Source: Methylocapsa acidiphila B2 | Lineage (GTDB): Bacteria > Pseudomonadota > Alphaproteobacteria > Rhizobiales > Beijerinckiaceae | Reading direction: 5' to 3' | DNA length: 64,000 nucleotides | NCBI RefSeq assembly: GCF_000427445.1 | Contig: NZ_KE386496.1 | Location: forward strand, 3,822,004-3,886,003 | Shown here: positions 41,263 through 57,369 of the stretch, in pieces | Position numbering within the stretch: position 1 is the first letter of the stretch | How the letters are laid out: each line of letters begins with the position of its first letter | Notes under the pieces: model-generated | What the model was told of the DNA's origin: nothing | What the model saw: the letters and a program-made list of their open reading frames with translations, nothing else | Database searches by the model: none | Program-made: the position numbers and the translations under genes

Positions 41263-41688
41263 TCAGCCCTCTCGGTTTGGCGTGCCGAGAACATGGACGT
41301 TTGGCGGCAGCATCGCATTGTCGAAGCTTTGGGTGAACATGGGCGCCGCGAAAAAGGCGACGGCGCGCAATGTTTCGCTGCCGGTATTGGCGAGATCGTG
41401 CCGCACGGGCGTCGGGATGACAAAAACGCTCCCCGGCGCAACTTGATGGATAATTCCGCCTTCCATCCGCAATTCGCCGGCGAGGATATATTGCGTCTCC
41501 TCAGTGGCGTCAGTGTGCCAGCCGAGCCGCCCGCCGGGCTCGATTTCATAGACGATCGTCGAGGATTGGGTCGCGCCATGTCCGCCATATGTCGCGAATG
41601 CGCCCGACCATCGGACTGTGGGATCGTCCACGCCGCCGACTTTCGCGCGTGGTAGATCGGCGGTCGAAACAACAAATGCTGAAGTCAA
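41263..41688 (-). CDS. Cupin domain protein
   Basis: 141-residue single-domain cupin. A conserved beta-barrel metal site shows GGRLGWHTDATEETQYILAGELRME (His and Glu of motif 1) and APGSVFVIPTPVRHDLANTG (Gly-Pro-His of motif 2). The start is TTG with AGGAG 7 bases upstream. It could be a small dioxygenase, isomerase or sensor; no substrate can be inferred. It stands alone beyond the C1 island, with a patatin-like gene upstream on the same strand. Confidence 0.8.
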   Translation of the reverse strand: MTSAFVVSTADLPRAKVGGVDDPTVRWSGAFATYGGHGATQSSTIVYEIEPGGRLGWHTDATEETQYILAGELRMEGGIIHQVAPGSVFVIPTPVRHDLANTGSETLRAVAFFAAPMFTQSFDNAMLPPNVHVLGTPNREG

Positions 41689-41817
41689 GGTCTTCTCCTG
41701 CCGATAGGGCCGACCCGCTGCGAAATGCGCTGCACTATTACTTTTAATGACCTATGATTATTTTTATATTTCGTCAAATCACTAATGGTAATTCATGTCT
41801 CTCTATGCTGTGGAGGG

Positions 41818-44019
41818 TCAGAGGCCTGGCGCGTCGACCTTGGGCTTAGCCAACCACGCGCCGGCGTGTTTGACGCCAAAGAGTTGTTGGAGAGGGCTAG
41901 GCTTACGGCTCGCAAGCGCATAGAGCGGATTGCCCGATTTGTCGGACCAGGGCGAACGCCAGATCTCGAAAGGCTTGTTTTTCGCGGCCGCGCTTTGGCC
42001 CATGTTCAGCACGCTTCCGACCTTCTCTTCGCTTAAGAGAGTCGATCGCGCGAGACCGGGCGCGCTGCGGAGATCATAGGCGGGGCTGATCAATTGGGCC
42101 AGCACGAGGCGGGCGTCGAGCTCGTCGACGCCCGGCGTTGGGGGCAAGTCCCAGCCTTCGATTTGGTCGCGACGGACGAGATCGGCGAGGATCGTGGCGC
42201 GCGCGAATTTCAACGTATTGTCGCGGATCAGGCCGATCCCGCGCGGGAATGGACGCAGCGCGATCCCCAGAAGGGCGCGCAAGGGTTCTTTCACGCTCTG
42301 GCTCAGAAGCGCCGGCGCGACATAATCGAAGCGCTGCGCGATCCGCTCCTGCAGCGTTTCAAAAAGAGCCTGCGAAATGCGTGGCCATTTAGGCTGGAGG
42401 ACCTCGGCCTTGGCTGTCCCGAACAGTGGCACGATCGTGTAGGATTCCGACATGGCCGCTGACGCCTCGACCTTGAAATCCTTATTCGCTTTGGCCGCCG
42501 CCGGCCACGCCTTGTAGATCGGGTGCTCCGGCGGCACGGTGAGTATCTTTTGCAGGAAGCGTTGGCAATTGCGGCGCCCGAGCTGGTAATCGTGATCTCG
42601 GAACGCGAAGGCCACAAAGCCGCCGAAACCGCCGAGAAGCCCACTTGCGATCGTGTAGCGCGCGTCGCTTTGAGGGTCATTGACATTCATGAGGCGGCTC
42701 GGGCCGATCAAATACCGGCTCGCGCAGGTCGGATCGGCCGCGAGGATGAGCTCGCTGGGCTTGAAGCGCGCTTGATCGATCAGGGCCGGCATCAGCGCGG
42801 AAAATATGCTCAGAATGCCGAGTTCCGGCTGTCCCTCGGCCTTGATGGGCTTGAGCTCGGGAAAGGGCGAGACCATGATCACGGCGCGATCGGCCTCCTC
42901 GAGTTTCGACTTGTTGGGCGCCGCGGGATCGTTTTTGAGCGTGAAGCGGGCGTATTCAAAGGGATCATTGTCGATGATCCCGCCGTCCGCCGTCGTGAAC
43001 CAGAACAGCGGGGCCTGCAGCTCGGCTGTCGTGAAATTCGGATCGACGCCATATTCGTCGACCAAAGCGTCGAGCGGAAAGCGGCGTCCATCATATTCGT
43101 TCTTCTCGGCGTCGGCGCCGAGGATCGCGCCGATCTCGCGTGGGGCGAGCCCTACGGGAAAGGCGGCCGAGGCGAGGGCGCAGATCGCATAGTCCTTCCA
43201 TTTCAGTGATTTTTGCGGATCGCTTTGATCGATGACGAGGTCGGCGGCGTTGATCTTGCGTGGCTTGTCATTATCGGCGAAAGGGCTGTGGCTGGGCCAG
43301 TCGCCCAAGCCGTTGACCGCGTAATGAACCCGGTCGCCATGCGAAATCATGTGGTAGTCGCCGCCCTCGAAGGTTACCCTGTAGGGCACGCCGCGCAGAT
43401 TCGACAGGGTCATGTAGATATGCAGCGGCTCGGCGACATAGGCGCGCGGCGTTTCTCTCAAGCGCGAAACGGCCACCCCGGCTTTCGCGATCTCGTCCAG
43501 TAGCCGCGCGTTGAGCAGAGAGGTCACCGGTTGGGGCGAGTCGGGAGGCGGTATGGGAATGCCGCTTGTGCGCGTGAAATCATCGTCCGGGGCAGGCGGC
43601 GCGGCGAGATCCGTATTCGTCAGGAAATCATTGCGCGCTCCGCCTTCGGAGACGAGAGTGGGCCGGAGCACCCAGGCTTCATAGAGCTTCGGCAGGTAAT
43701 ATTTGATTTTCTGTGTTCCGGCCGGTGGAGACGGCGGGAAGGGCGTGGGCGCCTGGTCCGCGTCGGCCAGGGCTACGGCGCCGATCGCGGCGGTTATCGC
43801 TCCAGCCGAGGCGCCCGCCATGACCTTGATCGCGACCCTATGGTTGGGGATTTCGTCGGGGTTCACGCCCTCGTTTCGATAGTCGCCGTTGCGCGCCTTT
43901 TCCCATTCGTCGAGCGCTTGAATGAGGAAGTCGAACACGCCTGCGGTGTAGGCGCCCGCCGAGATCGCGCCCGACATGGTCAATCCGATCTGGAATTCTT
44001 CATTGGATGTCGTCGGCAT
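41818..44019 (-). CDS. Large patatin-like phospholipase
   Basis: 733-residue protein with a patatin domain. The oxyanion loop is GLTMSGAISAGAYTAGVFD near the N-terminus. The nucleophile elbow GxSxG is VMAGASAGAITAAIG, and the catalytic Asp lies in TTADGGIIDNDPFEYARF. Lipid acyl hydrolase activity is expected. The region after about residue 400 has no recognisable domain and makes this more than twice the size of simple patatins. No signal peptide. The ATG at 44019 has GGGAGGGG just upstream, so it is preferred to 44040. It resembles the large DUF3376-type patatins of actinobacteria and proteobacteria; physiological role unknown. Confidence 0.85.
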   Translation of the reverse strand: MPTTSNEEFQIGLTMSGAISAGAYTAGVFDFLIQALDEWEKARNGDYRNEGVNPDEIPNHRVAIKVMAGASAGAITAAIGAVALADADQAPTPFPPSPPAGTQKIKYYLPKLYEAWVLRPTLVSEGGARNDFLTNTDLAAPPAPDDDFTRTSGIPIPPPDSPQPVTSLLNARLLDEIAKAGVAVSRLRETPRAYVAEPLHIYMTLSNLRGVPYRVTFEGGDYHMISHGDRVHYAVNGLGDWPSHSPFADNDKPRKINAADLVIDQSDPQKSLKWKDYAICALASAAFPVGLAPREIGAILGADAEKNEYDGRRFPLDALVDEYGVDPNFTTAELQAPLFWFTTADGGIIDNDPFEYARFTLKNDPAAPNKSKLEEADRAVIMVSPFPELKPIKAEGQPELGILSIFSALMPALIDQARFKPSELILAADPTCASRYLIGPSRLMNVNDPQSDARYTIASGLLGGFGGFVAFAFRDHDYQLGRRNCQRFLQKILTVPPEHPIYKAWPAAAKANKDFKVEASAAMSESYTIVPLFGTAKAEVLQPKWPRISQALFETLQERIAQRFDYVAPALLSQSVKEPLRALLGIALRPFPRGIGLIRDNTLKFARATILADLVRRDQIEGWDLPPTPGVDELDARLVLAQLISPAYDLRSAPGLARSTLLSEEKVGSVLNMGQSAAAKNKPFEIWRSPWSDKSGNPLYALASRKPSPLQQLFGVKHAGAWLAKPKVDAPGL

Positions 44020-44207
44020 GCTCCCCTCCCATAGCGCCATGTCGCAAAACTGTTGTTATCGCAGGAATTGCAAATGACTTGGCCGTCAACTCGGCAAATG
44101 ACGTGAACTGGCCGCGACCGGCTCGCGCGCGGGATCTACATCGACCGCTGCGCGTCAACATGCCACATTGAGGAAACAATGGAAGAGCTTGTCAAGCGCG
44201 ACGCGCT

Positions 44208-45326
44208 TCAAATGCTCCAGAAGACCCCGAATGTTCGCTCGATGAACCAGGCCAGGGCGAGAGCGAAGGCGATGCAGGAAAGCGCCGGCGCCAGGGCGCG
44301 CAGATAGATCGGCTCCCGCCTTGCGACGAAAACGATTGGAATCAGCAGAAGGGCGAGCGCGACTTGCCCTAGCTCCACCCCGATGTTGAAGCTGCACAGC
44401 GCAAGCGCGAGGCCGGAGGGGTGCAACTGCATGGGCGTCAGCGCGCTGGCGAAAGCCAGCCCATGGATCAGGCCGAAGCCAAAAGCGACGTTCCAGCGAA
44501 CGCGGGACAGAATCGGCCAGACATTGTCGGCGGCCGCAAGCATGATCGTGAGGGCGACGGCCGGGTCCACGAAGCGCGACGGAACGTCGACGACGCCCAG
44601 CACGGCGAGCGTCAGGGCGATCGCGTGCGCCAAAGTGAATGCGGTCAGGATCTTCAAGGTTTCGACCAGGACGCGGCCGAAGCCGTCGAGCGGCTTCCAG
44701 CCCTTGCGAGGGGCGCGTTGGAAGGCCGCCATGATCAGGAGGACCGCGACGAACAACAGATGATCGTAGCCGAGCAGGATGTGATTGATCCCGAACCCGA
44801 TAAATCGCCCGATTTCGTCCTGCGTCGAGTCCGGCGCCGCATCGAGAGAGGCCTCGGCGTGGTCGGGCGACAGGACGTCGGAACGCTCGCCGGTCGGCTG
44901 CACGAGCGTCAACAGGCCGCGATGGGTCGGATCTAGATCGAACAGCAGCCGATAATTGAGAGTCAGGGGGCCGGCCGCACGTGGGCAATCGGCGCGAAAA
45001 AAAATCGCGGCATAGGCGTTGCCTGCGTGATAATCGACCATGAAGTCGGAGGGGCGCAGCGCGCAGCCGCTGATCGTGAGGCGCCTGAGGACATAGGCCT
45101 CGATCGCAGCGCGCTTCGCTTTGAGCTTGCCCCAGGTGACGATCCCCTCGGCGCCGGCGTCGAGGCCGATAGCCGCGTCGAGGTCGCGCAAGGCCACATC
45201 CAACTGCCCGTTGACCTCGCGTTGCGCGTCGATCTGGATGCGAAGATAGCTGTCCGACGCCAGATGGGCGTTGGCCGTCATGCTGGTGAGAAAGAAAGCC
45301 AAGCCCGCAAGCGCGAGGAGGCGCAT
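44208..45326 (-). CDS. HupE/UreJ_2-family membrane protein
   Basis: 372 residues: signal peptide (LLALAGLAFFLTSMTANAH), an extracytoplasmic domain of about 150 residues (SYLRIQIDAQREVNGQLDVAL, DCPRAAGPLTLNYRLLFD), then about six or seven membrane helices. The first has the family hallmark GINHILLGYDHLLFVAVLL, with LAHAIALTLAVLG and GFGLIHGLAFASAL later, in which His and Asp could bind metal. Relatives are annotated as nickel/cobalt or unknown transporters; the substrate is unknown. The ATG overlaps the previous stop by one base (TAATG). It is the third of three membrane genes and close to the DUF4331/cytochrome genes. Confidence 0.82.
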   Translation of the reverse strand: MRLLALAGLAFFLTSMTANAHLASDSYLRIQIDAQREVNGQLDVALRDLDAAIGLDAGAEGIVTWGKLKAKRAAIEAYVLRRLTISGCALRPSDFMVDYHAGNAYAAIFFRADCPRAAGPLTLNYRLLFDLDPTHRGLLTLVQPTGERSDVLSPDHAEASLDAAPDSTQDEIGRFIGFGINHILLGYDHLLFVAVLLIMAAFQRAPRKGWKPLDGFGRVLVETLKILTAFTLAHAIALTLAVLGVVDVPSRFVDPAVALTIMLAAADNVWPILSRVRWNVAFGFGLIHGLAFASALTPMQLHPSGLALALCSFNIGVELGQVALALLLIPIVFVARREPIYLRALAPALSCIAFALALAWFIERTFGVFWSI

Positions 45327-45952
45327 TACGCTCGTCCTCGCAAATGCGCGAATTGCAGCGCGAAGACCATGAGTCCGATCGCCGCGATCCAGCTCGCGCC
45401 GGCGCGAAGCGCGATCTTGGCCCAATTGGGAGCAGATGGAGCGATGGCGATGAAGCCATAGCTGACCAGCGAGCATGCGGCGATCGCCGCTCCGAGTCCG
45501 AACAAAGCCGGCTGCAGGCCTTCCGCGCCCATCTGGCTCGCGAGACCGATGAGAAAACCGCAGCATGCCGCGATCAAAATCAGCGTGGTTTTGCCGAGGT
45601 CGAGCGCGGCGGCTCCGGCAATTCCGATCAAGACCATCAAAGCGGAGGCGTAGACGAGGGGATCGAATTGCGCGGCGCTGGCGAAGACCGCAAGCGAGCC
45701 GGCCCATGAGCCGAGGCAAAGCGTGCCGACGATCGGCGCGTCTCCGCGGCGGCTCTGGAGGCTCGCCCAAATCGCCAATCCGACAAGAAGCGCGATTTGA
45801 TCGAAAGAGGTCAGCACGTGAAGCGCGCCGGACCAAAAGCTCCCGAGAGTCTTGAAGGCGCTATGCGCTTGCGCCCCGCTCGGAGAAAAGCAGATCGCCG
45901 CGCCTATGAGAGAAGCTCCAGGCCTTGCGCCGGCGCATCTACGCAACGGCAT
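45326..45952 (-). CDS. Small integral membrane protein, HupE/UreJ-like
   Basis: 208 residues, mostly hydrophobic: N-terminal signal-like segment (GASLIGAAICFSPSGAQAHS), then five or so membrane helices (IALLVGLAIWASLQ, PIVGTLCLGSWAGSLAVF, ALMVLIGIAGAAALDLG, TLILIAACCGFLIGLASQMG). His after the signal (AQAHSAFKTLGSFWSGALHVLTSFDQIA) recalls the HupE N-terminal pattern. ATG 45952 overlaps the end of the HupE gene by 14 bases, and the stop overlaps the next start. The longer frame to 46150 is Arg-rich and rejected. Function unknown; the overlaps imply one membrane complex or transporter. Confidence 0.68.
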   Translation of the reverse strand: MPLRRCAGARPGASLIGAAICFSPSGAQAHSAFKTLGSFWSGALHVLTSFDQIALLVGLAIWASLQSRRGDAPIVGTLCLGSWAGSLAVFASAAQFDPLVYASALMVLIGIAGAAALDLGKTTLILIAACCGFLIGLASQMGAEGLQPALFGLGAAIAACSLVSYGFIAIAPSAPNWAKIALRAGASWIAAIGLMVFALQFAHLRGRA

Positions 45953-46529
45953 AATCAAAGACGAAATAGAGTCCAATGAGGGCGATGACGCCGCCCAAGT
46001 AGCGGATCGCCAGCGCGCCCGTGGGCCAGTTGACGAGCAAGCCGATCCCGATGCCGAGGGCGTGCAGCATGCCCGTCGCCGCCACGAATCCGACGCTGAA
46101 GGCCAAGGCATTCGCCGCCATTGGCAATTCGACGCCATGCGCATGCCCATGCGCGACAGCGAACACGGCGATGATCGCCAGGGCGGCCGCCAAGGGCAAA
46201 CGCCGCGCTTGGGCGACCAACAGGCCGAGCGTGAGGACCGAAAGAGCGATGAGGAGTTCGGTCGCGGGCAGGGGGGCGCCGAGCACGCCGAGCGCGCCGC
46301 CCGCCGCCATGATCATGGGAAAGCCGATCGGCAAGATCCAAATCGCCGGCGCGCCGAGCTGCGCCCCCCAGATGCCGACGCTCACCATAGCGAGGACATG
46401 ATCGGGTCCGAGCAGCGGATGGGTGAAACCGGAGGTGAGGCCGTCGCCGATCCCGTCGCCTGCATGGCCAAAGGCGGCCGTCGCGCTCGCCAGGAGCAAG
46501 AAACAGGAAACAGCGACCGCCCTAGTCAT
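45939..46529 (-). CDS. HupE/UreJ family protein
   Basis: 196 residues with signal peptide (CFLLLASATAAFGHA) and six membrane helices. Family hallmarks are FTHPLLGPDHVLAMVSVGIWG and the second His motif AVAHGHAHGVELP. HupE/UreJ proteins are thought to transport nickel and normally accompany hydrogenase or urease genes, but neither is present in the window. It is the first of three overlapping membrane genes. 80 bases separate it from the GMC gene upstream, with a weak hairpin between. Confidence 0.88.
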   Translation of the reverse strand: MTRAVAVSCFLLLASATAAFGHAGDGIGDGLTSGFTHPLLGPDHVLAMVSVGIWGAQLGAPAIWILPIGFPMIMAAGGALGVLGAPLPATELLIALSVLTLGLLVAQARRLPLAAALAIIAVFAVAHGHAHGVELPMAANALAFSVGFVAATGMLHALGIGIGLLVNWPTGALAIRYLGGVIALIGLYFVFDYAVA

Positions 46530-46552
46530 TCAATATCCGTGGCTTAAAAGCC

Positions 46553-46581
46553 TCCCGATCGCGTTAATCGCTTGATCGGGA
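46553..46581 (-). terminator. Weak hairpin between GMC gene and hupE
   Basis: 8-base perfect arms (46553-46560 and 46574-46581) with a 13-base loop. On the minus strand it is followed after a few bases by CTTTTAAG rather than a true T run. It could attenuate transcription between the GMC and hupE genes. Low confidence. Confidence 0.3.
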
Positions 46582-46609
46582 AGCGTCGGGAAAATCGCGC
46601 AGCGCGCGG

Positions 46610-48535
46610 TCAGGCCACGGAGGGAACGACCAAGGGCCGCGAGCTCAGCGCGTCGGCGAGAATGACGTCGGCCGCTTTCTCGCCGATCATATAGATCGAG
46701 CTGACGATGAAAAACCCCGGAATTCTTGGGAAGATGGACGCGTCCACAACGCGCAGCCCCATCACGCCGCGGACTCTGAAATTGCCGTCGAGGACCGCCA
46801 TGGGATCGCCGTCTTTCCCGATCGCGCAAGTGCAGGATGCGTGATGCCCCCAGGATTGATATCTCGCGAAATCGCGAATCTGCTCGTCCGTCGCCACCGC
46901 CGCGCCCGGCGCCAGCTCCGCCACGAAATAGCCGCTCGCCTTCAACGGTTCGGCGAGCCTGCGGACGAATTTCACGCCTTCGACAACCGAGTCCAGGTCT
47001 TTTTCCTGCGCGTCATTGCCTTCCTGAAAATAGCGGAAATTGATGTTCGGGCGCTCGCGCGGGTCGGTGGAATTCAAAGTGACTTCGCCGGCCGTGTTGT
47101 TTGTATGCGCCTTGAGCACCGCCCATGTCAGATGTTTCAGGCTGTGGACGATGCGGACGGAATAGTCTGGATAATAGCCCCTGAAATCGGTCAGGAGGGC
47201 GAAGCAGAAAAGATCGGGCAATGGCCGCTCGTCTGCGGAACGCTTGATGACGGCGAGGACCGCGCCATTGGTGGCGTAGACGCCCTCCTTCTTATTTTTC
47301 CACTCGGTGTATTGCGGATCCTTGCTCGAATAGGTGGCGTCTTTCAGGACGTTCCATTCCTCTTTCATTTCATTGACGACGCCGACCTCATAGCGGTCCT
47401 GCAGATTCTTGCCGACGCCGGGCAGATCGACGCGAACCGGAACGCCATGGCGTTCGAGCTCTTCCCTTGGGCCGATGCCGGACAGCATCAGCAATTGCGG
47501 CGTATTGAAAGCGCCGCCGGCGAGGATCACCTCCCGCGACGCGTGGACCTGACGCAACTCGCCGGGCTCGCGGCTCGGACCCTTGTGCGCCTGGTAGAGA
47601 CGAGCGCCCTTGAGATATTCCACGCCGATCGCTCGGTTATTCTCGTCCAGGAGAATGCGGGTCGCCAGCGCGTCGAGCTCTATAGTCAGATTGCCTGGAA
47701 ATTTTTCTTGCGCCTTGAGCAAGCGCTCCCGAGTTCCGGTCCGGGAATGGTTGCGGGTCGCGAGCGGAGGATAATGAATTCCAAAAGCGTTCTTGGTCAC
47801 GAGGCGCCAATCATTGGGATCGCCCTGGCCGAGAATGAACCATAGGAAGCGCTTGAGAGGAGAGGCGAGCGCCTTGATCTCAGTTCTGATGGATTTCTTG
47901 AGAAGCTTTTCCAGCTGCTCGCTTTCGATCGCGGCTTTTGGGATTTCGATTTCCGAGCTGAGCCAGCCGTTCCAACCATGCCTGGTCGGATTGTAGCCGA
48001 GCTTCGCCAGCCAACGGTAGAGGAAGACCCGGTGCCGACAATCCTCCAGCCTCTCGAAATATTTGCGCATGTTGGTCGCGCTCCAGGAGGCGTCGTCGGT
48101 CAGCCTCGCCAACGCGTCCCAATCCTCATTATGAGGATAGACCGTGATCATCGCGTTATGGGCGGTGCATCCGCCGAGGCAGCCCGCGCGTGGATATAAC
48201 ACCCCGTCGACGCGCTCTCCCTTCCATTCCTCGCGATATTTCAGATCCCTCTTCTGCAAGGCGTCGTCGCCGAAATGACGCACCCAGAAATCCCAAGCCA
48301 TGGCCTCGTTCTCGGTCGAGCAGGCATGAAATACCGGGACCTCGTAATCGTCCGGCAGGCGCTCCTTATCGTCCGGGTAGGCCGCGTCGCCGCCCTTCAA
48401 CTTGATCGGATCGCCGCCAGCCTCCAGGACGAGGACCTTTCGGCCCTGTTCTGCTAGGCGCGCCGCGACCGTGCCTCCACCGGCGCCGGAGCCGACCACG
48501 ATATATTCGAAGCTCGCATTATCGGTGACGCTCAT
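46610..48535 (-). CDS. GMC-family FAD oxidoreductase
   Basis: 641 residues of the glucose-methanol-choline family that oxidises alcohols or sugars with FAD. The ADP-binding motif is YIVVGSGAGGGTVAARLAEQG at the N-terminus. GMC signature 1 is near GCLGGCTAHNAMITVYP, signature 2 is VILAGGAFNTPQLLMLSGIG, and the C-terminal catalytic His appears in SWGHHASCTCAIG. No signal peptide is seen. It lies 148 bases downstream of a secreted di-heme cytochrome c. A cytoplasmic GMC would not reach that cytochrome directly, so export with a partner or an unrelated role must be considered. Substrate unknown. Confidence 0.88.
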   Translation of the reverse strand: MSVTDNASFEYIVVGSGAGGGTVAARLAEQGRKVLVLEAGGDPIKLKGGDAAYPDDKERLPDDYEVPVFHACSTENEAMAWDFWVRHFGDDALQKRDLKYREEWKGERVDGVLYPRAGCLGGCTAHNAMITVYPHNEDWDALARLTDDASWSATNMRKYFERLEDCRHRVFLYRWLAKLGYNPTRHGWNGWLSSEIEIPKAAIESEQLEKLLKKSIRTEIKALASPLKRFLWFILGQGDPNDWRLVTKNAFGIHYPPLATRNHSRTGTRERLLKAQEKFPGNLTIELDALATRILLDENNRAIGVEYLKGARLYQAHKGPSREPGELRQVHASREVILAGGAFNTPQLLMLSGIGPREELERHGVPVRVDLPGVGKNLQDRYEVGVVNEMKEEWNVLKDATYSSKDPQYTEWKNKKEGVYATNGAVLAVIKRSADERPLPDLFCFALLTDFRGYYPDYSVRIVHSLKHLTWAVLKAHTNNTAGEVTLNSTDPRERPNINFRYFQEGNDAQEKDLDSVVEGVKFVRRLAEPLKASGYFVAELAPGAAVATDEQIRDFARYQSWGHHASCTCAIGKDGDPMAVLDGNFRVRGVMGLRVVDASIFPRIPGFFIVSSIYMIGEKAADVILADALSSRPLVVPSVA

Positions 48536-48683
48536 GGCTCGTCCTCGTTATATTCGTGCGGCTGGAGTCGGGCGGCTGGGGACAAATGCCGGCTCCGACG
48601 CAGGCTCACGTCAGCTAATGGAATGTTGGGATTGAGCCTTCTAACGGGCGAGGCGTCGCTGGCGGCGAGCCTCGCCCGCAGGT

Positions 48684-51263
48684 TCAAAACGTCTTCAAGA
48701 AGGCGATCAAGGCTCGCTTGTCGTCATCGCTCAGACTGGGCTCTTCCTTGAAATAATCCGTGCCGAAATAATGCCCGCGATTGACGACGAAGTCGGGGCA
48801 TTTGTTCACCGCGAGCAAATCGTCCAGGACATTGCTGAAGACCCGACGGGCGTCGTCGTCGCTTGCATCGCTCGGCAGCGCCTTGAGATCGAATTTGAGC
48901 TTCAGCAGAACCTTTCCGAGCTGCGCGATATGTTTGATTTCGTCGATTGGATTGTCGCGCTTGTCGAGGTCGATATTGCCGAGTAGAGCGACGGGCGTTC
49001 CTTTGGGTATAGGACCGAGCGCCACGCCGTCTTCATCGAAGAAATGCCCGAGCCGTAAGGCTTCAACCAAGGGTTGGAGCTTTTCGGAATTGTTGAAGCC
49101 GGCTTGCAGGAAGTCGGGCAGATAGCCCTTAGGCACTCTCAGATAGCTCGGCGCCGTCGTGACGTCGACCTGGCCGCGAAGCTTCTTCCCGGAAGCGGTC
49201 ACATAATCGATATTGCCGGTCCGCTTTTCTGGCCAGAGCATTTGCTCAATCGAACTGTTGAAGGACGCCAGCCGCGCCTCGACCGACGGGCTCGGGTTGA
49301 ATTCGCCGACCGAGTTGTTGAGCAGGAAAGGCGCTGTGGACCAAAGGCTGATCAAGGAAGCGGGACGCGTGTAGCCGCGGCCGCCGGCCGGCATTTCATA
49401 GGGCCTCGGCTCGCCCGTGAACGGATGATGCACGGTGATCGTGCCAACCGAGGGAAGATCTTTGTATGAGGTGGAGGAGTAATCGTTCCAGATATTGTCC
49501 TTGATCGCATTAGTGGCGAGCGGGCTACAGGCGTTGGTTTCGAGGAGGCTCACGGGAACGCGCAGATCCGTCGACAAGAAATTGTCGACAAGGAAATCAT
49601 CCGCGGTCACGATTTTCTTGAAGGCCAGCTTGGCCTCGTCGGATTTAGTCCAATCCCAATAGGCGTTCCAACACGTGAGGTAATCCTTGCCGACGCAGCC
49701 GTCATTTGGGAAGAAACTATAGGTCTTCTCCGGTAGCTTGCTCGAGTGACATCTTGCGCAACGCTCGCCGAAGACCTCTTTGCCATGGGCCATGGTCGCC
49801 GCGTCGGCGGCGAGATTGGCGGCGCCATTGGGCGCGTTTTTCAGATAGTCCGGCTTGGCCGTGGCGACGAAAAACAAGGCCGTGTTCGGCGTCTGCTTTT
49901 CATTCGCTTGCCAATAGGAGGAATTGGCGCGCCCGATCTTGATCTCGATCGGGCTGATCGGCTTGCCGCCGACGATCGGGTTGAAATGCTCGAACCATTC
50001 CTCGCTGAAGAGGCCGATGTTGACATAGACGCGGTTGAAGGAAGCCAACGCGCCGGCGGAATCGGAGCCGTCCTTGAGAACGCGCGGCGTCCATACCTGA
50101 TCCGGCTTGCTGAAAAATTTGGTCAAAGGGGTGCCGGGCGGCACGTATTCATTGAACTGCTTGTTGTCCTGCTCGCCGCCTACAAGCTTTTCGTGGCCCA
50201 GCTTCAAGGCGTTTTGTAACCTGGGTCCGAGATTATAGATCGCGTTCATCGTGCGCGGATTTATGATGTAATCCGTGGAAATGAGCGAGGTGTCGAGGGC
50301 TCCAGGGCGCGACGTATGGAAATATTGATAGGCGAAGTTCGTCGGGTCCGCAGTATAAGTAAAAATCCTATCCCACCAAAAATATTGAGCGCCTGGGTTG
50401 GAATTGAGATTTTCCCATTTCGGATTTTCGGGGTCCGCGGGCGGATTGGTCGGGTTCGGCCCGACATGGCAGAATCCGCAGGACATGCCGACCCGATAGG
50501 GCCGCACGAGGTTCTTATTATTGTAATAGCTCGGATCGTTGTAGAAGCGCTCTGGGTCCCAGTTCTTTTCCGCCTCCTCGTCGAAGTCAGGATTGGGGAA
50601 TAGCCGTAGGCCAACGATGCCTGTGGCGTAACCATAGTAGGAACCGACCGGGAAATTGTCGCTGCGGCCGCGGGCGCCGATCTTGACGCCCGGATATTTC
50701 GCCTCATTCTCGAACGGATCCGGCGCGCAGCTCGGATCACGCATGTCGAGCCAGAGGCCGAAGCGGTCTTTGCGCGGCGCAGTCGGCTTGGAGAAGCACG
50801 GCTCGTTCACGAGACCGAGATAGTTCCAGCGATTGCTGCGGCTGAACTTCAGGCCGGGGTGGTTCGAGATCGTTTTCAGGAAATCCAGTTCGCCGAAGGA
50901 TTTCTTGTTGAGGACATCCCACATCCGGTCATTGCCGGCGGTCCATACGATCCAATTGTTACGTCCGATCGCGGCGGCTTTGACAGCTTCTTGTGGCGTG
51001 ATTCCGGGAAGATAGGGCGCGAGCGTTTGGGCCAGGGCCTCCGGATTCTTGGTCGCGCCATAGTCCATGTCGCGATAATAATCCTCGTCGGAGCCGGGCA
51101 GGGAGTCCGCTGTGCGCCCGGCGCACATTGCTTCATCCTTGACATTGCCGGAGCCCGTGCCGCATTTCGCCTTCCAATCGTCCCCGGCGACGCCAGGCGC
51201 AGCCCATCCGATCGTGGCGAGGGTTACGAGTAATATGGCGGATTTCAACGAGTTGATCTTCAC
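48684..51263 (-). CDS. Secreted large di-heme cytochrome c
   Basis: 859 residues. Signal peptide 1 to about 25 (AILLVTLATIGWAAPGVAG). Two CxxCH heme sites: CGFCH near residue 261 and CARCH near 501, giving a periplasmic di-heme protein. The wide spacing, total size and Asn/Asp/Tyr-rich loops resemble di-heme peroxidase or rubber-oxygenase (RoxA-like) architectures rather than small electron carriers; this comparison is from memory of the families and needs a search. The start is GTG with GGGGAGGA upstream. Flanked by GMC (downstream) and DUF4331-like (upstream) genes on the same strand with about 145-base gaps. Confidence 0.8.
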   Translation of the reverse strand: MKINSLKSAILLVTLATIGWAAPGVAGDDWKAKCGTGSGNVKDEAMCAGRTADSLPGSDEDYYRDMDYGATKNPEALAQTLAPYLPGITPQEAVKAAAIGRNNWIVWTAGNDRMWDVLNKKSFGELDFLKTISNHPGLKFSRSNRWNYLGLVNEPCFSKPTAPRKDRFGLWLDMRDPSCAPDPFENEAKYPGVKIGARGRSDNFPVGSYYGYATGIVGLRLFPNPDFDEEAEKNWDPERFYNDPSYYNNKNLVRPYRVGMSCGFCHVGPNPTNPPADPENPKWENLNSNPGAQYFWWDRIFTYTADPTNFAYQYFHTSRPGALDTSLISTDYIINPRTMNAIYNLGPRLQNALKLGHEKLVGGEQDNKQFNEYVPPGTPLTKFFSKPDQVWTPRVLKDGSDSAGALASFNRVYVNIGLFSEEWFEHFNPIVGGKPISPIEIKIGRANSSYWQANEKQTPNTALFFVATAKPDYLKNAPNGAANLAADAATMAHGKEVFGERCARCHSSKLPEKTYSFFPNDGCVGKDYLTCWNAYWDWTKSDEAKLAFKKIVTADDFLVDNFLSTDLRVPVSLLETNACSPLATNAIKDNIWNDYSSTSYKDLPSVGTITVHHPFTGEPRPYEMPAGGRGYTRPASLISLWSTAPFLLNNSVGEFNPSPSVEARLASFNSSIEQMLWPEKRTGNIDYVTASGKKLRGQVDVTTAPSYLRVPKGYLPDFLQAGFNNSEKLQPLVEALRLGHFFDEDGVALGPIPKGTPVALLGNIDLDKRDNPIDEIKHIAQLGKVLLKLKFDLKALPSDASDDDARRVFSNVLDDLLAVNKCPDFVVNRGHYFGTDYFKEEPSLSDDDKRALIAFLKTF

Positions 51264-51408
51264 GTCATCCTCCCCTTCGCTTTGTTGTCCGACGTCGTCT
51301 TGACAGGCGGCGCGGATCTCGGCGATCGACGCAATCTCAAGTTTGCTTTCAATGTGCTTCCTGCATCGGGAAAACGCGGCTCACCCGAACCGCGGCTTGC
51401 CGCCGCCA

Positions 51409-52539
51409 TCACGAATAGGCGCTGCGCTTTCTCCGCCGCAACAGGAATAGGCCGATGATCAAGGCGAGCACAATCGCGGCTATGCCCCATAGCACGCCAG
51501 GACGCGACAGGAACCGGACCACATAGGGTCCCATGGCGCCCGGCGCTTGCGGGTGGTAGGGCCACGGTTCGGCGAGGTAGGGAAACTCTTTCAATAATGG
51601 CTTGTCGTTGACTGTGGCGCGGGGCCATTGATTCGAATCGATGAAGGAATTTTCTTGCAGCGGGCAGTCGCCTTGTTGGCAGGTCAAATAAGAGACGTCG
51701 TCTTCCAAGCGCCGCCCGTTTGGAAAACCCGACGGCCTTTGATTGGTGTAGACCATCACATCCGGCACATAATCGTAATGCCTGATCAAGAAGCCGCTGA
51801 GCTGATTGAGATTGGCCAGCGGAGGCGCCCAATTCTTCAGAAAATCTTGAATCATCGCCCTCGATTTCGATCGGTCCTTGATCGCGGCGACCTGCTCGTT
51901 GGGCGGTATCGTGTTCAGGAAGTCGAAACGGCCGAGTTGCGTCCTATTGGAGCGGCCGACGTGATCAATCTGTTCCCCGCCGTTGACGCGATTGGTGGTC
52001 GCCCAAAGAAGCCAGTTTTGTTGGTTATCAGGGAACGATGATTTTGGAATGCTCAAAACCATCGTGATCACGTTGACCTTGAAAAACTTTGGGAAGATGA
52101 ACGGGTCATCGCGGACGCCCGTATAGACTCTAATCTTCTCTGGATCTTTCAATCCCTTGAAGGATTGCTCCTTGACTGAAGTATCGTTGTTCAGCCGAAA
52201 CCTTATCGTGACGTCCGGGCTTATCATCTCGGGGCTAGGGATCGATCCGCCATAGCGCGCGACGTCCTCGGCGTTGTCGAACGTCACCTTGCTATGTAGA
52301 TCCATGTTGATGTTATATTCAAATGGCTCCAGATTATAGGGTGGGGGCCCGGTCAGCGACCTCCGCACGTCCAAGATCGCAACCATCTGATCGCCATCCG
52401 GAAAAAAGAAAAGCCCGGTGATATTCGCCTCTTGTTCATCTTCGGGCAGCCACATCGGGTCGGCGTGATCCGATGCTCGGCTCGAAGAGGACGCGAGGAC
52501 TATGCCTATAAAGGCGAATAAAATGCCAAGGCGTTTCAT
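51409..52539 (-). CDS. Membrane-anchored DUF4331-like protein
   Basis: 376 residues. Signal peptide (LGILFAFIGIVLASSSSRAS) followed by the DUF4331-type opening SDHADPMWLPEDEQEANITG with FFFPDGDQMVAILDVRRSL. A long extracytoplasmic domain contains a Cys pair in LTCQQGDCPLQ. A C-terminal membrane helix (GVLWGIAAIVLALIIGLFLL) ends in a basic tail RRRKRS, so the bulk faces the periplasm. Ribosome site AGGGGGAG before the ATG. First gene of the run DUF4331-cytochrome-GMC, and divergent from a TPR protein gene. The biochemical role of DUF4331 is not known to me. Confidence 0.75.
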   Translation of the reverse strand: MKRLGILFAFIGIVLASSSSRASDHADPMWLPEDEQEANITGLFFFPDGDQMVAILDVRRSLTGPPPYNLEPFEYNINMDLHSKVTFDNAEDVARYGGSIPSPEMISPDVTIRFRLNNDTSVKEQSFKGLKDPEKIRVYTGVRDDPFIFPKFFKVNVITMVLSIPKSSFPDNQQNWLLWATTNRVNGGEQIDHVGRSNRTQLGRFDFLNTIPPNEQVAAIKDRSKSRAMIQDFLKNWAPPLANLNQLSGFLIRHYDYVPDVMVYTNQRPSGFPNGRRLEDDVSYLTCQQGDCPLQENSFIDSNQWPRATVNDKPLLKEFPYLAEPWPYHPQAPGAMGPYVVRFLSRPGVLWGIAAIVLALIIGLFLLRRRKRSAYS

Positions 52540-53106
52540 GATCTCCCCCTCTATTAATATTGTTCTTTATAGATCTCTGGGCCTCGACCAGATTTCCTGT
52601 TTTTATTGTCAGAACATAGATTTATCTTAATAAGAACGACATCGACGTAGGCGTTGAGTGCGGTTTTCGATAAAATTCGCTCCAAATAGCTTTTTAGCTT
52701 GCTGCTTCTTGAGTCGAACAAGCCTCATTGAGGCGGCCATCGCACGGGTTTGCTCCCCTCGCTCATCCTCTGAGTCGCCCCGCGGCCGTACGTAGCCGCT
52801 TGCGGCGCATCCGATGCCCCAAGCTATCGCGGCGTATGTTAGGGACCGAAGGGCCTCCGCGTCAAAGCAAAAATTTACAAAATGTTGGAAATCAATTCAC
52901 AGTCGGCCGCTGACATTAGCACAGGTTCGCCGCGCGGCTACCGGCGGCCGCAATTGCAACATTTGCGTGTGGCGCGAGATTGCACGAAAATTGAACAACA
53001 AACGCTTTCGAGAGTGGTTGGACCAAAAATGCGCCTGATCGGCTCACGCGGAGTCAATATAGCTCCTATGATTGCATACCGTCGACCTCCGACGCATGGA
53101 GATGGC
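52540..53106. other. Divergent promoter region between DUF4331 and TPR genes
   Basis: 567 bases. 52545-52700 is AT-rich (TTTTTATTGTCAG, ATTTATCTTAATAAG) and probably contains the promoter of the DUF4331 run. A plus-strand frame continuous with the TPR gene is open from 52882, but the protein before 53107 has no conserved features. Confidence 0.45.
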
Positions 53107-54324
53107 ATGGAGACGAAGAGAGCGGCTACGTTCGCCTGCATCAAGCGGAGCGAAACGTGTTTTGCGTTGATTCTCGTTGTGTCTTTGTATGGAGTCTCGG
53201 CGGCTTTCGCAGCGCCGTTCACGCCTACGAGCGACAATCAAGTACTTGAGCGGCTTCCGCTTTCGGCTGCGCCCTACGACAGGGAGCTGCGCACTTTGCG
53301 GGCGGCGCTCGACGGTGCGCCGGGAACTCTCGATATCGCCCTCAAGCTAGCGCAGTTTTACATTCGGATTGGAAAGATCGAGTCGGATCCACGCTATTAT
53401 GGCTATGCTCAAGGGGTGTTGCAGCCTTGGTGGAATGAGCCGGAAGCGTCGGCCAAAGTTCGTCTTCTGCGCGCGATGATCAGGCAGAACCGCCATGATT
53501 TCAGCGGCGCCTTGCAGGATTTGGCGCAGGTACTCAGCGTAGAGCCGGGCAATATTCAGGCTTGGCTCACGCGCGCGGTCATCATGAAGCTCCAGGCGAA
53601 TTATGACGAAGCGCGGCTCAGTTGCCTGCCGCTCGCCGAGTCCCGGGATCCTTTGCTCGCAGTCACATGTTTGAGCGACGTGAACAGCCTAAACGGGAGG
53701 GCGCAAGCGAGTTACGAGTTTTTGCAGGACGTCTTGCGCGAGCGCGAGGGTGCGTCGCAAGACCAGCGCGTCTGGAGTCTCACAGTCCTTGCTGAAATCT
53801 CGATGAGAATGGGAAGGAACGACGACGCCGAACGGTTTTTCAAGGAGGCCTTGGGCGTTGGGCGCCAAAGCGCCTATCTTCTTGCCGCCTACGCCGATTT
53901 TCTGTTGGATCAAGGGAGGGCGGCGGAAGTCGCGGATTTACTGGCCGATAAGACCTCCGTCGACAGCCTGTTGCTTCGTCTCGCCTTAGCCAAACAGCAG
54001 CTCGCGGCGGCGGATCTACCGGAATTCGTCGCGAAGATCGGCGATCGCTTTGCGGCGAGTAAAATGCGGGGCGAAAACTTCCATCAGGGCGATGAAGCGC
54101 GTTTCGCCTTGCGCCTGCAGGGGAGGGCCGAAGACGCATTGCGGTTGGCCAAGGCCAACTGGGCCGCGCAACGCGAGCCGCAGGACGCCCGCGTTCTGCT
54201 CGAAACGTCGCTCGCGGTTCGAGACCGCGCCGCGGCGCAGCCGGTGCTCGATTTCCTGGCCCGGACGAGACTTGAGCATGTGCGGCTCAAATCATTGGCG
54301 GCCGAAATTGAAAGACTGCCGTGA
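53107..54324 (+). CDS. Secreted TPR-repeat protein
   Basis: 405 residues. A membrane-spanning or signal segment (CFALILVVSLYGVSAAFA) near residues 16-33 is followed by tetratricopeptide helices: TLDIALKLAQFYIRIGKIE, AKVRLLRAMIRQNRHDFSGAL, VWSLTVLAEISMRMGRNDDAERFFKEAL, SAYLLAAYADFLLDQGRAAEV. ATG 53107 has GGAG 4 bases upstream and sits right before the signal peptide; earlier starts are not supported. It is divergent from the DUF4331 gene and presumably works as a periplasmic scaffold with that group. The function is otherwise unknown. Confidence 0.75.
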   Translation: METKRAATFACIKRSETCFALILVVSLYGVSAAFAAPFTPTSDNQVLERLPLSAAPYDRELRTLRAALDGAPGTLDIALKLAQFYIRIGKIESDPRYYGYAQGVLQPWWNEPEASAKVRLLRAMIRQNRHDFSGALQDLAQVLSVEPGNIQAWLTRAVIMKLQANYDEARLSCLPLAESRDPLLAVTCLSDVNSLNGRAQASYEFLQDVLREREGASQDQRVWSLTVLAEISMRMGRNDDAERFFKEALGVGRQSAYLLAAYADFLLDQGRAAEVADLLADKTSVDSLLLRLALAKQQLAAADLPEFVAKIGDRFAASKMRGENFHQGDEARFALRLQGRAEDALRLAKANWAAQREPQDARVLLETSLAVRDRAAAQPVLDFLARTRLEHVRLKSLAAEIERLP

Positions 54325-54357
54325 GGCTCGTCGTCGACGCCGGGCTAGGCGAAGCGT

Positions 54358-55968
54358 TCAGGCTGCGACGCCCAGTCCAGGTTGCGCCTCGATGACGAGA
54401 GAATCGACTTGCCGCTCATATTTCACGAAATTCTCGCGAAACATCTTGATGAGCTTTTGCGCAGCGTCGGCGAATTCCGTTTGGCTCGCCCAGGTCTGGG
54501 ACGGATCGAGGATGCGCGGATCGACTCCCGGCGCGGCGTGAGGGATGAGAAGTCCGAAATAGGGGTCCGGGCGGAAGCCCCCGTGGGAAAGTGCGCCGTC
54601 GAGGGCGGAGTTCAGGAGCTTGCGCGTGACCTCGATGGGCATGCGTCGACCGACTCCATATTTGCCGCCCGTCCAGCCCGTGTTGACGAGCCAGCAATCG
54701 ACCTGATGTTTGGCGATTTGGGCGCGCAAAAGCGCGCCATATTCCGACGCGCTGCGGGGCATGAATGGCGCGCCAAAGCAGGTCGAAAAGGTCGCCTGCG
54801 GCTCGCTGACGCCCTTTTCCGTTCCCGCCACCTTCGCGGTGTAGCCCGACAGAAAATGATACATGGCCTGCGCCGGATCGAGCTTCGCGATCGGAGGCAA
54901 GACGCCGAAAGCGTCGCAGGTGAGCATCACGATATTTTTCGGATGGCCCGCCCGTCCCGTAGCGACGGCGTTGGCGATAAAGTCGAGAGGATAGGCGATC
55001 CGTGTGTTCTCGGTCCTTGAATCGTCATCGAAATTAGGCGCCCGCGTCAATGGATCGAGCGCGACATTTTCCATGATCGTACCGAAACGCTCCGAGGTCG
55101 CGTGAATCTCCGGCTCGGCCTCGCGTGACAGCCTAATCGCCTTGGCGTAGCAGCCGCCTTCGAAATTGAAGACGCTTTCCTCGCCCCAACCATGTTCGTC
55201 GTCGCCGATCAGACTGCGGCGAGGATCGGCGGATAGGGTGGTTTTGCCGGTCCCCGAGAGGCCGAAAAACAGGGCCGTGTCGCCAGCGGGGCCGATATTG
55301 GCCGCGCAATGCATGGGCATGACGCCTTTGGCCGGAAGCAGAAAATTGAGATAGGTGAAGACAGCCTTCTTGATCTCGCCGGCATAGCTCGTGCCGCCGA
55401 TGAGGACGATTCCCCGGCTGAAGTCGATGGCGATGACCGTTCCAGAACGGCAGCCGTGGCGCGCCGGATCGGCGCTGAAGGACGGTAGATCGACGATCGT
55501 GAGATCCGCGCGGAATCTCATGAGTTCGTCCGCGGGCGGCCGGATCAACAGGTTGCGGATGAACAGCGAGTGCCAGGCGAGTTCCGAATAGACGCGGACA
55601 TTCAGCCGATGCGCCGGCTCGGCGCCGCCGTAAAGATCCTGCGCGAATAGGTCCATGCCCCGCGCATGGGCGATCATGTCGGCGCGCAGCCTGTCGAATT
55701 GCTCCGGCGTCATCGACTGGCAATTGTCCCACCAGACTGATGGGTCGGTGAGCGCATCTCGCACGATGAATTTGTCGCTCGGCGATCGGCCCGTATGGAC
55801 CCCCGTCTCGGCGACCAGCGCGCCGCCCTTCGCGATCTTGGCCTCGCGGCGCGCGATCGCTTCCTCATAAAGGCGCGGCGCCTCCAGATTGTAAAAGACG
55901 CTTTCAAGCCCCTCGAAACCGAAAGTCTCGGCTGGAAACTCGGGATTGACTGGTCCTGCTTTGCGCAT
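54358..55968 (-). CDS. pckA: Phosphoenolpyruvate carboxykinase (ATP)
   Basis: Converts oxaloacetate plus ATP to PEP, CO2 and ADP; gluconeogenesis. Motifs present: TGRSPSDKF at the oxaloacetate site, the P-loop [24 protein letters not shown] at the metal site, and [15 protein letters not shown]. 536 residues from ATG 55968, which has GGAGG 6 bases upstream; a frame open to 56097 adds residues with no family match. Convergent with the TPR gene (33-base gap). Confidence 0.96.
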
Positions 55969-56130
55969 TCTCGCCTCCCGCCCGAGACGCCCCTGTTTTG
56001 CTTCGAATCGCGGCGTTAGCCCAACGTCCCACTCGCGCGCATGTTCCAAAGCCGAGCAGAGCGTGAGGCAAGATTCCCGCGCCGGGCCGATGGTCACGCG
56101 CGGAAATTCGCTGAACGGAGACGTGACGCT

Positions 56131-56916
56131 CTACTTATTAAATCCGCTAACCGGCTGGTTTTCTCTTGCGGCTTTGGCGATCTCGGCGAGAATCGCGCGC
56201 AAGGCCGAGGGTGACTCGACGTGGCGCGGAAAAACGATGCGCGCGGTTTCATCGCCGCAGGCGAGGTCGAGGCCGTCCGGATCGATGCCGGTCGCGCGCC
56301 ATTCGCCTTTTGTGGCGCCCGAGAGAGCCGTGGCGTAGAGCTCGAGCGCATCCTTGTGGTCTGTGTTGAGGTGGACGAGGGCTTCCGCCTCCGCGGCGAT
56401 AAGATCCGCCGCGTCCGCGATGGGCGTCATTAGCCGTTCCGCCGCAAAGCTCCCGGCTCGGCCAAAGCCGCCGTTCAAATGGCCGTGCTCGATTGAGACG
56501 AGCCAGAATGAAAAATCGCCGAAATCGGCATAGAGGGCGGCCTTCGGATGCTTCGCGAGAAAACGCGCCTTCAGCTCGGCTCTATCCGGTGGATCGTCGG
56601 CCCGCGCGGCGCGGCCCGTCAGCGTCAAGCGGGGATGGGCCAGCGGATCGCCCTCGCCGGTTTCGGCGAGGAGAAGCGAGACGCGGGGATCGGCTTCCAT
56701 CTGCCGCGTATGTGCGGCGAGGCGTGAGACGAGGAGGATTGGGCTTCCGTCGGGCGCCGTCGCCACATTGACGAGGCTGACGAAAGGTCCGCCCTCTTTG
56801 GCGCTCAAGGTCGCGAGCGCACCGGAACGGACGCAGCGCAAAAGACGCTTGGCGTCAGCCTCGGCGTCATAAGGCGTCGGCGTGGAGGGGGTGTCGACGC
56901 CTTGTGCATCCGTCAT
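56131..56916 (-). CDS. HugZ-like FMN-binding split-barrel protein
   Basis: 261 residues of the pyridoxamine-phosphate-oxidase-like fold: SGALATLSAKEGGPFVSLVNVAT, LLVSRLAAHTRQMEADPRVSLLLAE and HPRLTLTGRA in the N-terminal barrel. A DUF2470-type C-terminal domain contains LVHLNTDHKDALELYATAL. This two-domain layout is that of HugZ/HutZ-type heme-utilisation proteins and of plant HugZ-like proteins. The heme link is by family; no heme-uptake genes are nearby. Confidence 0.82.
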   Translation of the reverse strand: MTDAQGVDTPSTPTPYDAEADAKRLLRCVRSGALATLSAKEGGPFVSLVNVATAPDGSPILLVSRLAAHTRQMEADPRVSLLLAETGEGDPLAHPRLTLTGRAARADDPPDRAELKARFLAKHPKAALYADFGDFSFWLVSIEHGHLNGGFGRAGSFAAERLMTPIADAADLIAAEAEALVHLNTDHKDALELYATALSGATKGEWRATGIDPDGLDLACGDETARIVFPRHVESPSALRAILAEIAKAARENQPVSGFNK

Positions 56917-56931
56917 GCGTGACCATGCCTT

Positions 56932-57030
56932 CTCGCGGAGCGCTCTTCGACCGAATGAATTCTTCCGGTTGATAGAGAGATCGCTCGAACCTCAAGAATT
57001 CGAGCATATTCTGCCCGAATATGCTCGAGG
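56932..57030. repeat. Two-part palindromic repeat, copy 6 (inverted orientation)
   Basis: Read in the reverse order of copy 1. A degenerate second part (AGCGCTCTTCGACCGAATGAA..., 56938-56985) comes first, then a hairpin with 11-base perfect arms (57001-57011 and 57017-57027) and 5-base loop. The hairpin contains GAGCATATTC, the same word as copy 1's stem at 1252-1261. It lies in the gap between the HugZ-like gene and the DUF1150 gene. Confidence 0.6.
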
Positions 57031-57099
57031 GCATGATGACCCGCCTTTCGAAAAAGCTCCAGCCAAGACCTCTATGGATCGGCGTGAATTTTTTCCGCT

Positions 57100-57369
57100 T
57101 TAATGCACGCTCACCATCTCAAGCTCGTGCTCCAGAGCATTGGCCACGGCGGCGTCGCGCGAATCGGTGAGGACGATGGGCGTTCCGTCGGCAGCCAAGA
57201 GCGCGAAGAGCTGCAGCCCCGGTTGCAACTGCGGCGCCGCGGGAAACACCTTGCGAACATCCTCCGAGAGAATCGGTTTTAGATAGGCGACGCGCCCGCC
57301 GCCCAAGCTCGCGAGTTGCTCATTGGTGAGCAATAGCCCCGAGTCTTCCTTCGTCTCGTTCAACATCAT
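57100..57369 (-). CDS. DUF1150 family protein
   Basis: 89-residue soluble protein with the DUF1150 pattern LGGGRVAYLKPILSEDVRKVFP and LFALLAADGTPIVLTDSRDAAVANALEHEL. In alphaproteobacteria it typically follows a small heat-shock protein gene, as here (50-base gap on the same strand). GGAG lies 6 bases before the first of two tandem ATGs. Role unknown, probably a partner of the heat-shock protein. Confidence 0.88.
   Translation of the reverse strand: MMLNETKEDSGLLLTNEQLASLGGGRVAYLKPILSEDVRKVFPAAPQLQPGLQLFALLAADGTPIVLTDSRDAAVANALEHELEMVSVH

Follow-up and report, generated by a model that had tools for sequence, protein, structure and literature searches.

Two conserved gene units, one with a predicted amino-terminal metal-binding motif and one built on a di-haem protein and a GMC oxidoreductase, meet in Methylocapsa acidiphila B2

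In Methylocapsa acidiphila B2 (contig NZ_KE386496.1), a secreted TPR protein gene diverges from a run of minus-strand genes that encode a DUF4331-like protein, a large di-haem c-type protein (CYT), a GMC flavo-oxidoreductase, three HupE-like membrane proteins and a patatin-like lipase, which raises the question of whether these genes constitute one system and what that system would do. The locus lies in a window of 64,000 nucleotides (positions 3,822,004 to 3,886,003, forward strand), the whole stretch of DNA that was analysed, and all coordinates are counted from its first letter. A strong case can be made for two conserved units that are linked in some lineages. One is a metal module of DUF4331, TPR and permease genes, for which the new observation is that mature DUF4331 proteins are predicted to start with Ser-x-His, an amino-terminal Cu/Ni-binding (ATCUN)-type motif, after removal of the signal peptide. 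The other is an oxidation module whose core, CYT and GMC, recurs as a conserved pair of genes in records of Pseudomonadota and Acidobacteriota.

Translation and a Pfam scan of the window established that the named genes are all open reading frames with assigned families, and the gene group given in a preliminary description of this DNA is therefore real. Its features are as follows.

53107-54324, plus strand: secreted TPR protein, divergent from the run (TPR_19, 1.4e-11)
51409-52539, minus strand: DUF4331-like secreted protein with a C-terminal membrane anchor (PF14224, 38.1 bits)
52465-52473, minus strand: Ser-Asp-His codons (residues 23-25) at the predicted mature N-terminus of the DUF4331-like protein, an ATCUN-type motif
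48684-51263, minus strand: CYT, large di-haem c-type protein of 859 residues (P0002), distantly RoxA-like
50466-50480, minus strand: first CXXCH of CYT, residues 262-266, invariant in 62/62 aligned rows
49746-49760, minus strand: second CXXCH of CYT, residues 502-506, invariant in 62/62 aligned rows
48771-48773, minus strand: His831 of CYT within a GHxFG motif close to the C-terminus, a candidate distal haem ligand (62/62 rows)
46610-48535, minus strand: GMC flavo-oxidoreductase without signal peptide (PF05199, 5.5e-29; PF00732, 1.1e-19)
45939-46529, minus strand: HupE of the nickel-permease family (PF04955, 2.7e-53; HX5DH), predicted mature N-terminal His codon at 46464-46466
45326-45952, minus strand: second HupE-like membrane protein, 208 residues (PF04955, 8.8e-7), predicted mature N-terminal His at 45863-45865
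44208-45326, minus strand: HupE_UreJ_2 permease with a secreted N-terminal domain (PF13795, 1.2e-40), predicted His1 at 45264-45266
41818-44040, minus strand: patatin-like lipase, next in the run after the permease (PF01734, 7.1e-8)

Spacings along the run, from the DUF4331-like gene to the patatin gene, are 145, 148, 80, -14, -1 and 167 bp, with overlaps among the three membrane genes, and the patatin gene is a member of the cluster. Signal peptides were recognised by eye on six products (DUF4331-like, CYT, the three HupE-like proteins and TPR), where four had been counted before, and the earlier placing of the set in periplasm and membrane fits these six and not the GMC enzyme. The TPR frame is open from 52882, formerly taken as its start; the likeliest start is 53107, with the signal peptide following it.

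A free N-terminal x-x-His is, by established chemistry, the ATCUN motif for copper and nickel. Among 398 genomes of the phylum, 15 full-length DUF4331 places (>450 bits) were found, and in all 15 proteins the sequence SSHREAP stands straight after the small residue that closes the predicted signal peptide. The corresponding SDHADP occupies the predicted mature N-terminus of all 12 window-type proteins (11 by script, that of locus L176 by eye). In the 12-row alignment of the latter (A4), Ser23, Asp24 and His25 are invariant, SDH lying directly behind a small residue at the predicted cleavage site, while in an alignment of 10 of the 15 full-length proteins with that of L037 (A6) the sole invariant His is that of the N-terminal SxH. 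The 15 DUF4331-like proteins at CYT loci carry [SA]DH[AN]DP. Relatives without a leader begin M-A-D-H (L044, L103, L114) or M-S-H-H (L038-L042), as judged by eye with start codons assumed, and removal of the Met would again leave x-x-His ends; L103 and L114 offer no space for a leader. These proteins retain the x-x-His end even though export is unlikely for them. A further DUF4331-like product, in L177 (gene 10097-11197), has SHH behind its signal peptide and a HupE relative close by (8676-9272).

The DUF4331 label itself stands, the window protein being alignable over its whole length with other DUF4331 proteins, with its Pfam match confined to residues 268-325 (1.5e-9; 38.1 bits against a cut-off of 27). 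An AlphaFold model (predicted local distance difference test, pLDDT, 73) suggests, weakly, a CBM9-like beta-sandwich core; the Foldseek match to CBM9 1i82 (E 1.4e-4), with TM-scores of just 0.19/0.33, is regarded as weak. A search of open-licence literature returned no mention of the DUF4331 name or its Pfam number.

The genomic neighbourhood of DUF4331 connects the family with a permease. In the same scan DUF4331 was present in 22 genomes and HupE_UreJ_2 in 118 (96 above cut-off), and a HupE_UreJ_2 gene lies on the same contig within 2.5 kb of 11 of the 15 full-length DUF4331 genes, where simple arithmetic gives a chance expectation of roughly 0.001 per place. A TPR relative stands between the two in those same 11 and in 0 of the other four, so that the repeated association of DUF4331, TPR and HupE_UreJ_2, as previously suggested, is borne out by the neighbourhood search. 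Members of an extracytoplasmic function (ECF) sigma cluster and of an RskA-type anti-sigma cluster occur near 10 of the 11 (one pair Pfam-named). Seven genomes with weaker or partial DUF4331 matches fall outside the 15: in this genome (G000) the permease is 6.8 kb from the DUF4331 match, in G749 a sub-cut-off permease match is 1.2 kb away, and in G031, G081, G382, G543 and G751 no permease is near DUF4331 among the matches listed. Window-type DUF4331, sought with A4 over 369 genomes, occurs in 5, two of them strong (this genome and G601), and both strong genes stand in a run with CYT and GMC. TPR relatives were found in L029 (the same genome as L045), L047, L049, L079 and L090. One locus, L036 (8750-10585 and 10653-11821), resembles a decayed version, in which TPR shares an open frame with the C-terminal part of DUF4331 and is followed by a HupE_UreJ_2 gene split over two frames, with a divergent gene for a 516-residue di-haem protein (PF03150/PF21419) beside them.

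The three membrane genes differ in kind, and the earlier description of three HupE/UreJ-type proteins needs qualification accordingly. The first is a true HupE by family match and HX5DH, the third is a HupE_UreJ_2 protein, and the second is a degenerate HupE relative with HX5DQ in place of HX5DH, its likely start being 45952; counterparts of the second occur in the Methylocystis loci L047 and L049. A 542-residue frame considered as the third membrane gene was rejected, the HupE_UreJ_2 gene being 44208-45326. His follows the predicted cleavage site in all three products, in both second-gene counterparts and in all eight permease relatives at CYT loci (by eye). Across an 18-row permease alignment (A7; L036, L047, L049, L060 and L122 left out), His1, at a predicted cleavage site, is found in 18/18; no other residue of the outer domain is invariant. 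The permease part retains HX5DH with invariant His182, Asp188, His189, His234, His288 and Glu318. Many outer domains of A7 contain an EF-hand-like LDxNxDGxLTWxE, which is degenerate in the window permease.

Anglerases provide a close comparison. Cu and Ni binding was shown for N-terminal-His domains fused to HupE_UreJ_2 by Franco Cairo et al. (2025, PMC12537917), who gave these proteins their name, and the family can no longer be called one without biochemistry, as it had been. Ang-1/Ang-2-HupE/UreJ-2 proteins share with the window permease a signal peptide, a mature N-terminal His, an outer domain and a PF13795 permease, and Ang-1 is likewise found in Pseudomonadota. For the outer domain, compared with that of RbAng-1a, the searches gave no sequence-level match to the published structure, with its entry not confirmed in the PDB copy used. 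The window differs in that two extra His1 membrane proteins are present, and that the permease neighbours are DUF4331 and TPR, words absent from the main text of that paper. The metal role previously suggested for the HupE-like set fits these N-terminal histidines.

The second unit was delimited by scanning genome contigs with the CYT alignment, which yielded the best 80 of 119 relatives, near-duplicates included, in Methylocapsa, Methylocystis, Methylococcales, Pseudomonas, Novosphingobium, Nitrospirillum, Acidobacteria and others. Counts over 54 loci exclude the 26 of 80 with a flank below 4 kb, and a gene at any place in the locus, as far as 10 kb away, was counted as a neighbour. A GMC relative is present at 68/80 CYT loci and at 51 of the 54 with at least 4 kb on each side (the three without being L057, L104 and L105); cytochrome and GMC enzyme are almost always neighbours. 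In 54 of the 68, GMC lies on the same strand within 300 bp downstream of CYT (stop-to-stop frames), and the GMC model found 0/19 in loci chosen without CYT. The window GMC shares the GMC_oxred_N and _C domains with choline oxidase, alcohol oxidases and fatty acid photodecarboxylase, and has PDB relatives, but belongs to a subfamily tied to CYT. Lipoprotein-like signals were seen by eye in 5 of 53 printed GMC N-termini (L056, L062, L063, L078, L084), two of them (L056, L078) with a twin-arginine-like stretch, and the remainder of the 53 have no evident signal peptide; the 12 of 65 GMC frames in which the search motif was missing lie outside this count.

Other neighbours are less constant. A patatin of any type occurs at 25/80 CYT loci (23/54 with flanks), and directly past the permease gene also in L047, L049, L079 and L090. 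Relatives of DyP-type peroxidases are found at 20/80 (17/54), each with an uncharacterised 441-residue protein that itself occurs at 22/80; two of these proteins at DyP loci were scanned and gave no family match above cut-off. The pair of DyP and approximately 441-residue proteins was seen in L057, L068, L077, L082, L085, L089, L094, L099 and L100, and also in L104, L106, L107, L110, L111, L113, L115 and L119. RoxA-like cytochromes and old yellow enzyme genes occur at a few CYT loci. A literature search found no paper on a GMC-patatin-di-haem gene cluster.

From its sequence, CYT is an enlarged, divergent di-haem protein distantly akin to RoxA-like cytochromes. Its earlier designation as a di-haem cytochrome agrees with the two CXXCH motifs, which, together with His426 and His831, are invariant in 62/62 aligned relatives; the NCBIfam di-haem peroxidase match is weak (4.1e-8; 33 bits, the cut-off being 150). 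A clean RoxA-like profile (A8), made from nine rows at CYT loci of which one matches RoxA 4b2n, hits every one of the 62 CYT rows (18.9-47.4 bits), with E-values from tiny sets. On P0002 it yields three pieces in the same order (residues 257-278, 472-529 and 828-859; 33 bits in total) that correspond to the first CXXCH, the second CXXCH and the C-terminal His motif, whose His is invariant in 9/9 RoxA-like rows. The bridging relatives L071, L077 and L082, with HNN where RoxA has HNG, score 50-66 bits from the RoxA-like profile, a profile built on them scores 661 bits against P0002 from residue 95 to the end, and L077 and L071 weakly match NCBIfam RoxB and RoxC. An initial profile comparison with E 2.3e-52 over most of the chain was withdrawn because two of the 11 rows in the A5 alignment (L077, L082) were close CYT relatives (524/500 bits), and the kinship now rests on the three ordered motif pieces and the bridging relatives.

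With RoxA/RoxB rubber oxygenases and the PA2077/PA2078 fatty-acid di-haem peroxidases CYT shares a pair of CXXCH motifs that are followed, in the RoxA-like order, by a C-terminal His motif; it differs in being larger, in having motif-only similarity, in the replacement of the PYLHNG His and in an adjoining GMC gene. Similarity to RoxA-like proteins along the whole chain was not found, being confined to the motif pieces. RoxA has further His ligands on its second haem. The PYLHNG His is present in 3 of 4 distant CYT rows, and its loss from the core rows indicates that the catalytic surroundings differ from those of RoxA. The AlphaFold model has a pLDDT of 87. A direct PDB sequence search with CYT gave no match, and profile searches of the PDB hit mainly cytochromes c, in the region of the second haem motif.

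Whether the two units belong together was judged from loci that contain both. TPR, DUF4331, CYT, GMC, permease and patatin occur in window order at 4/80 loci, namely L047 and L049 in Methylocystis, which have the second HupE-like gene as well, and L079 and L090 in Novosphingobium. Methylocapsa aurea (L045) has TPR, DUF4331, CYT and GMC, with no HupE gene in 20 kb around GMC (L029), and in L118, L121 and L122 CYT, GMC and patatin are accompanied, on the opposite strand, by DUF4331 and a permease of another type. The modules are apart in G013 (L037, L109) and G601 (L170, L176). The proposal that all these genes form one system is thus supported by the full set in two further genera and qualified by the genomes in which the modules are separate.

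Gene content, conserved neighbourhoods, the residues invariant at the predicted mature N-terminus and the distant RoxA-like kinship are the observations from which a mechanism may be proposed, namely metal capture coupled to the oxidation of lipid or lipid hydroperoxide by two joined envelope modules, to which a probability of roughly 0.4 is assigned. We infer that the DUF4331-like protein, secreted and anchored in the membrane, would after cleavage act as a carrier, its mature Ser-Asp-His end holding Cu(II) or Ni(II) in an ATCUN site, that the metal would be handed over to the permease, which would import what the free N-termini have captured, and that the TPR protein may serve as a periplasmic scaffold. 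CYT, as a divergent RoxA-like haem oxygenase or peroxidase, would act in the periplasm on a lipid or lipid hydroperoxide, oxidising or reducing it, the patatin would free an acyl chain and the GMC enzyme would oxidise an alcohol or aldehyde product. The modules would be joined because a redox-active metal and lipid oxidation need joint handling. Since the mechanism asks for distant RoxA kinship alone, and since the leaderless x-x-His proteins count on the opposite side, its odds are unaffected by the weaker profile result.

Several observations weigh against this proposal. On the side of linkage, 41 of the 54 CYT loci lack DUF4331, which means that the CYT reaction does not depend on the metal module; full-length DUF4331 genes have no nearby HupE_UreJ_2 or TPR gene in G453, G658, G729 and G717 (4/15), and around the DUF4331 places L038-L044 (7/7) the models used detected none of the TPR, permease, CYT, GMC, patatin and HupE genes within 20 kb. 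The composition of the run is uneven, GC content being 54-60% in the DUF4331, CYT and GMC genes and 64-67% in the membrane genes (window 62%). With regard to the envelope, the window GMC has no signal peptide, and neither have several of the L038-L044 proteins, so that not every DUF4331 protein can act outside the cell. As for the metal site, A4 contains a second invariant His, His193, an SxH-type N-terminus is absent from the weak or partial DUF4331 matches L142, L144 and L009, and the permease outer domain gave no PDB match by sequence or profile, the A7 profile missing the Ang-1 structure at E <=1, with the presence of 9GCE in the PDB copy unconfirmed. In CYT, a clean profile-profile comparison with RoxA-like proteins covers just 35 columns (probability 94.6, E 7.3e-8), the PYLHNG His is replaced by Leu, Gln, Val or Ser in 58/58 core rows, P0002 has no match to PF21419, and Foldseek with the CYT model gave nothing at E 0.001 or better.

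Of the alternatives, the one that survives best has the oxidation core serve the catabolism of some hydrophobic compound from outside, such as a terpenoid, hydrocarbon or long-chain alcohol, with the metal module serving an unrelated need. The presence, close to CYT-GMC at other loci, of RoxA-like cytochromes, old yellow enzyme genes, DyP-type peroxidases and lipases is in keeping with this, as are the cleavage of polyisoprene by RoxA (PMC6797691) and the oxygenation of fatty acids by PA2077/PA2078 (PMC4496055). The closest relatives of the locus are those of methanotrophs and CYT-GMC occurs in many Methylococcales, which argues, weakly and with uptake genes not searched for, in the opposite direction, and the explanation is considered unlikely, if a serious one.

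Supply of nickel to a NiFe hydrogenase encoded elsewhere in the genome, with the oxidation genes beside the HupE-like genes by accident, is rather improbable. The first membrane gene shares PF04955 and HX5DH with HupE, a known nickel permease family as cited in PMC12537917, and the model of true HupE found nothing at other CYT loci. Hydrogenase and urease had been described as absent; a search of the genome turned up no urease alpha subunit, and the urease link was dropped for that reason, whereas the large subunit of a NiFe hydrogenase is encoded approximately 1 Mb from the cluster. A second HupE_UreJ_2 protein with predicted His1 is encoded about 18-19.5 kb past the window (L160, G000:C2:3886004-3906003) and lies near NikR regulator and TonB receptor genes, the three together (14805-19521) being likely a nickel-uptake locus, which also agrees with the metal capture proposed above; in L037, a TonB receptor gene follows the permease gene. 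A literature search listed nothing that ties HupE directly to copper. Unlike HupE nickel permeases, the window genes are not beside a hydrogenase and the second lacks HX5DH. Against an accidental neighbourhood, both the permease and the second gene turn up again alongside CYT, GMC and patatin in Methylocystis, as does the permease in Novosphingobium.

Methanotrophs possess pairs of a copper protein and a di-haem partner, MopE/CorA-SACCP and MbnP-MbnH, in which, as here, a secreted metal protein is encoded beside a di-haem protein. CYT could by analogy be a maturase, MauG/MbnH-like or similar to the MopE partner, that would form a copper site in the DUF4331-like protein by oxidising some of its residues. 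The pair of CXXCH motifs in CYT, its weak match to di-haem peroxidases, Foldseek hits, very weak ones, to MauG and to 6e1c, a MauG-like protein of copper homeostasis (E 3.7-9.7), and the different di-haem protein adjoining TPR, DUF4331 and permease in L036 would agree with this. The sequence similarity detected is nevertheless to RoxA-like proteins, most flanked CYT loci are without a DUF4331-like gene, and no CYT was found in 19 of 20 loci examined, 17 of them with a DUF4331 gene by the models used (the exception being L176), which renders a maturase decidedly unlikely. A chance neighbourhood without shared function, for which the separate modules of G013 and G601, the 80-167 bp spacings that are no proof of a single transcript and the promoter and terminator counts near those of shuffles might be adduced, is very improbable given the same order in separate genera (L047, L049, L079, L090) and the strong linkage inside each module.

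In the surroundings of the locus, the gene next to TPR encodes phosphoenolpyruvate carboxykinase (Pfam), no RNA families reach gathering scores in window positions 41000-58000, and the promoter and terminator scans gave 6 against 3.9 (standard deviation 2.1) and 14 against 14.9 in shuffles. Elsewhere in the window are a CobW-type GTPase of a metal chaperone family (60973-62772) and DUF6513 and CitG-like genes (30103-31698 and 34946-35944), which we presume may be part of a C1-metabolism region.

At the level of the family, DUF4331 may represent a widespread group of metal carriers, secreted and leaderless, that use a free N-terminal ATCUN motif, the secreted ones docking with permeases that have an N-terminal His, often near an ECF-sigma pair; in methanotrophs and some others they would have been fused with a lipid system of RoxA-like haem protein, GMC and patatin into one stress or supply system for metal and lipid oxidation. 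This wider generalisation is doubtful at present. The conserved His position makes the orphan DUF4331 family a testable metal protein, and the anglerase permeases described in 2025 gain a candidate partner in it. The recurrence of the cluster in a small number of further genera makes two little-understood families of proteins testable. As copper governs methane oxidation in methanotrophs, a new route of metal capture would bear on their copper and nickel supply.

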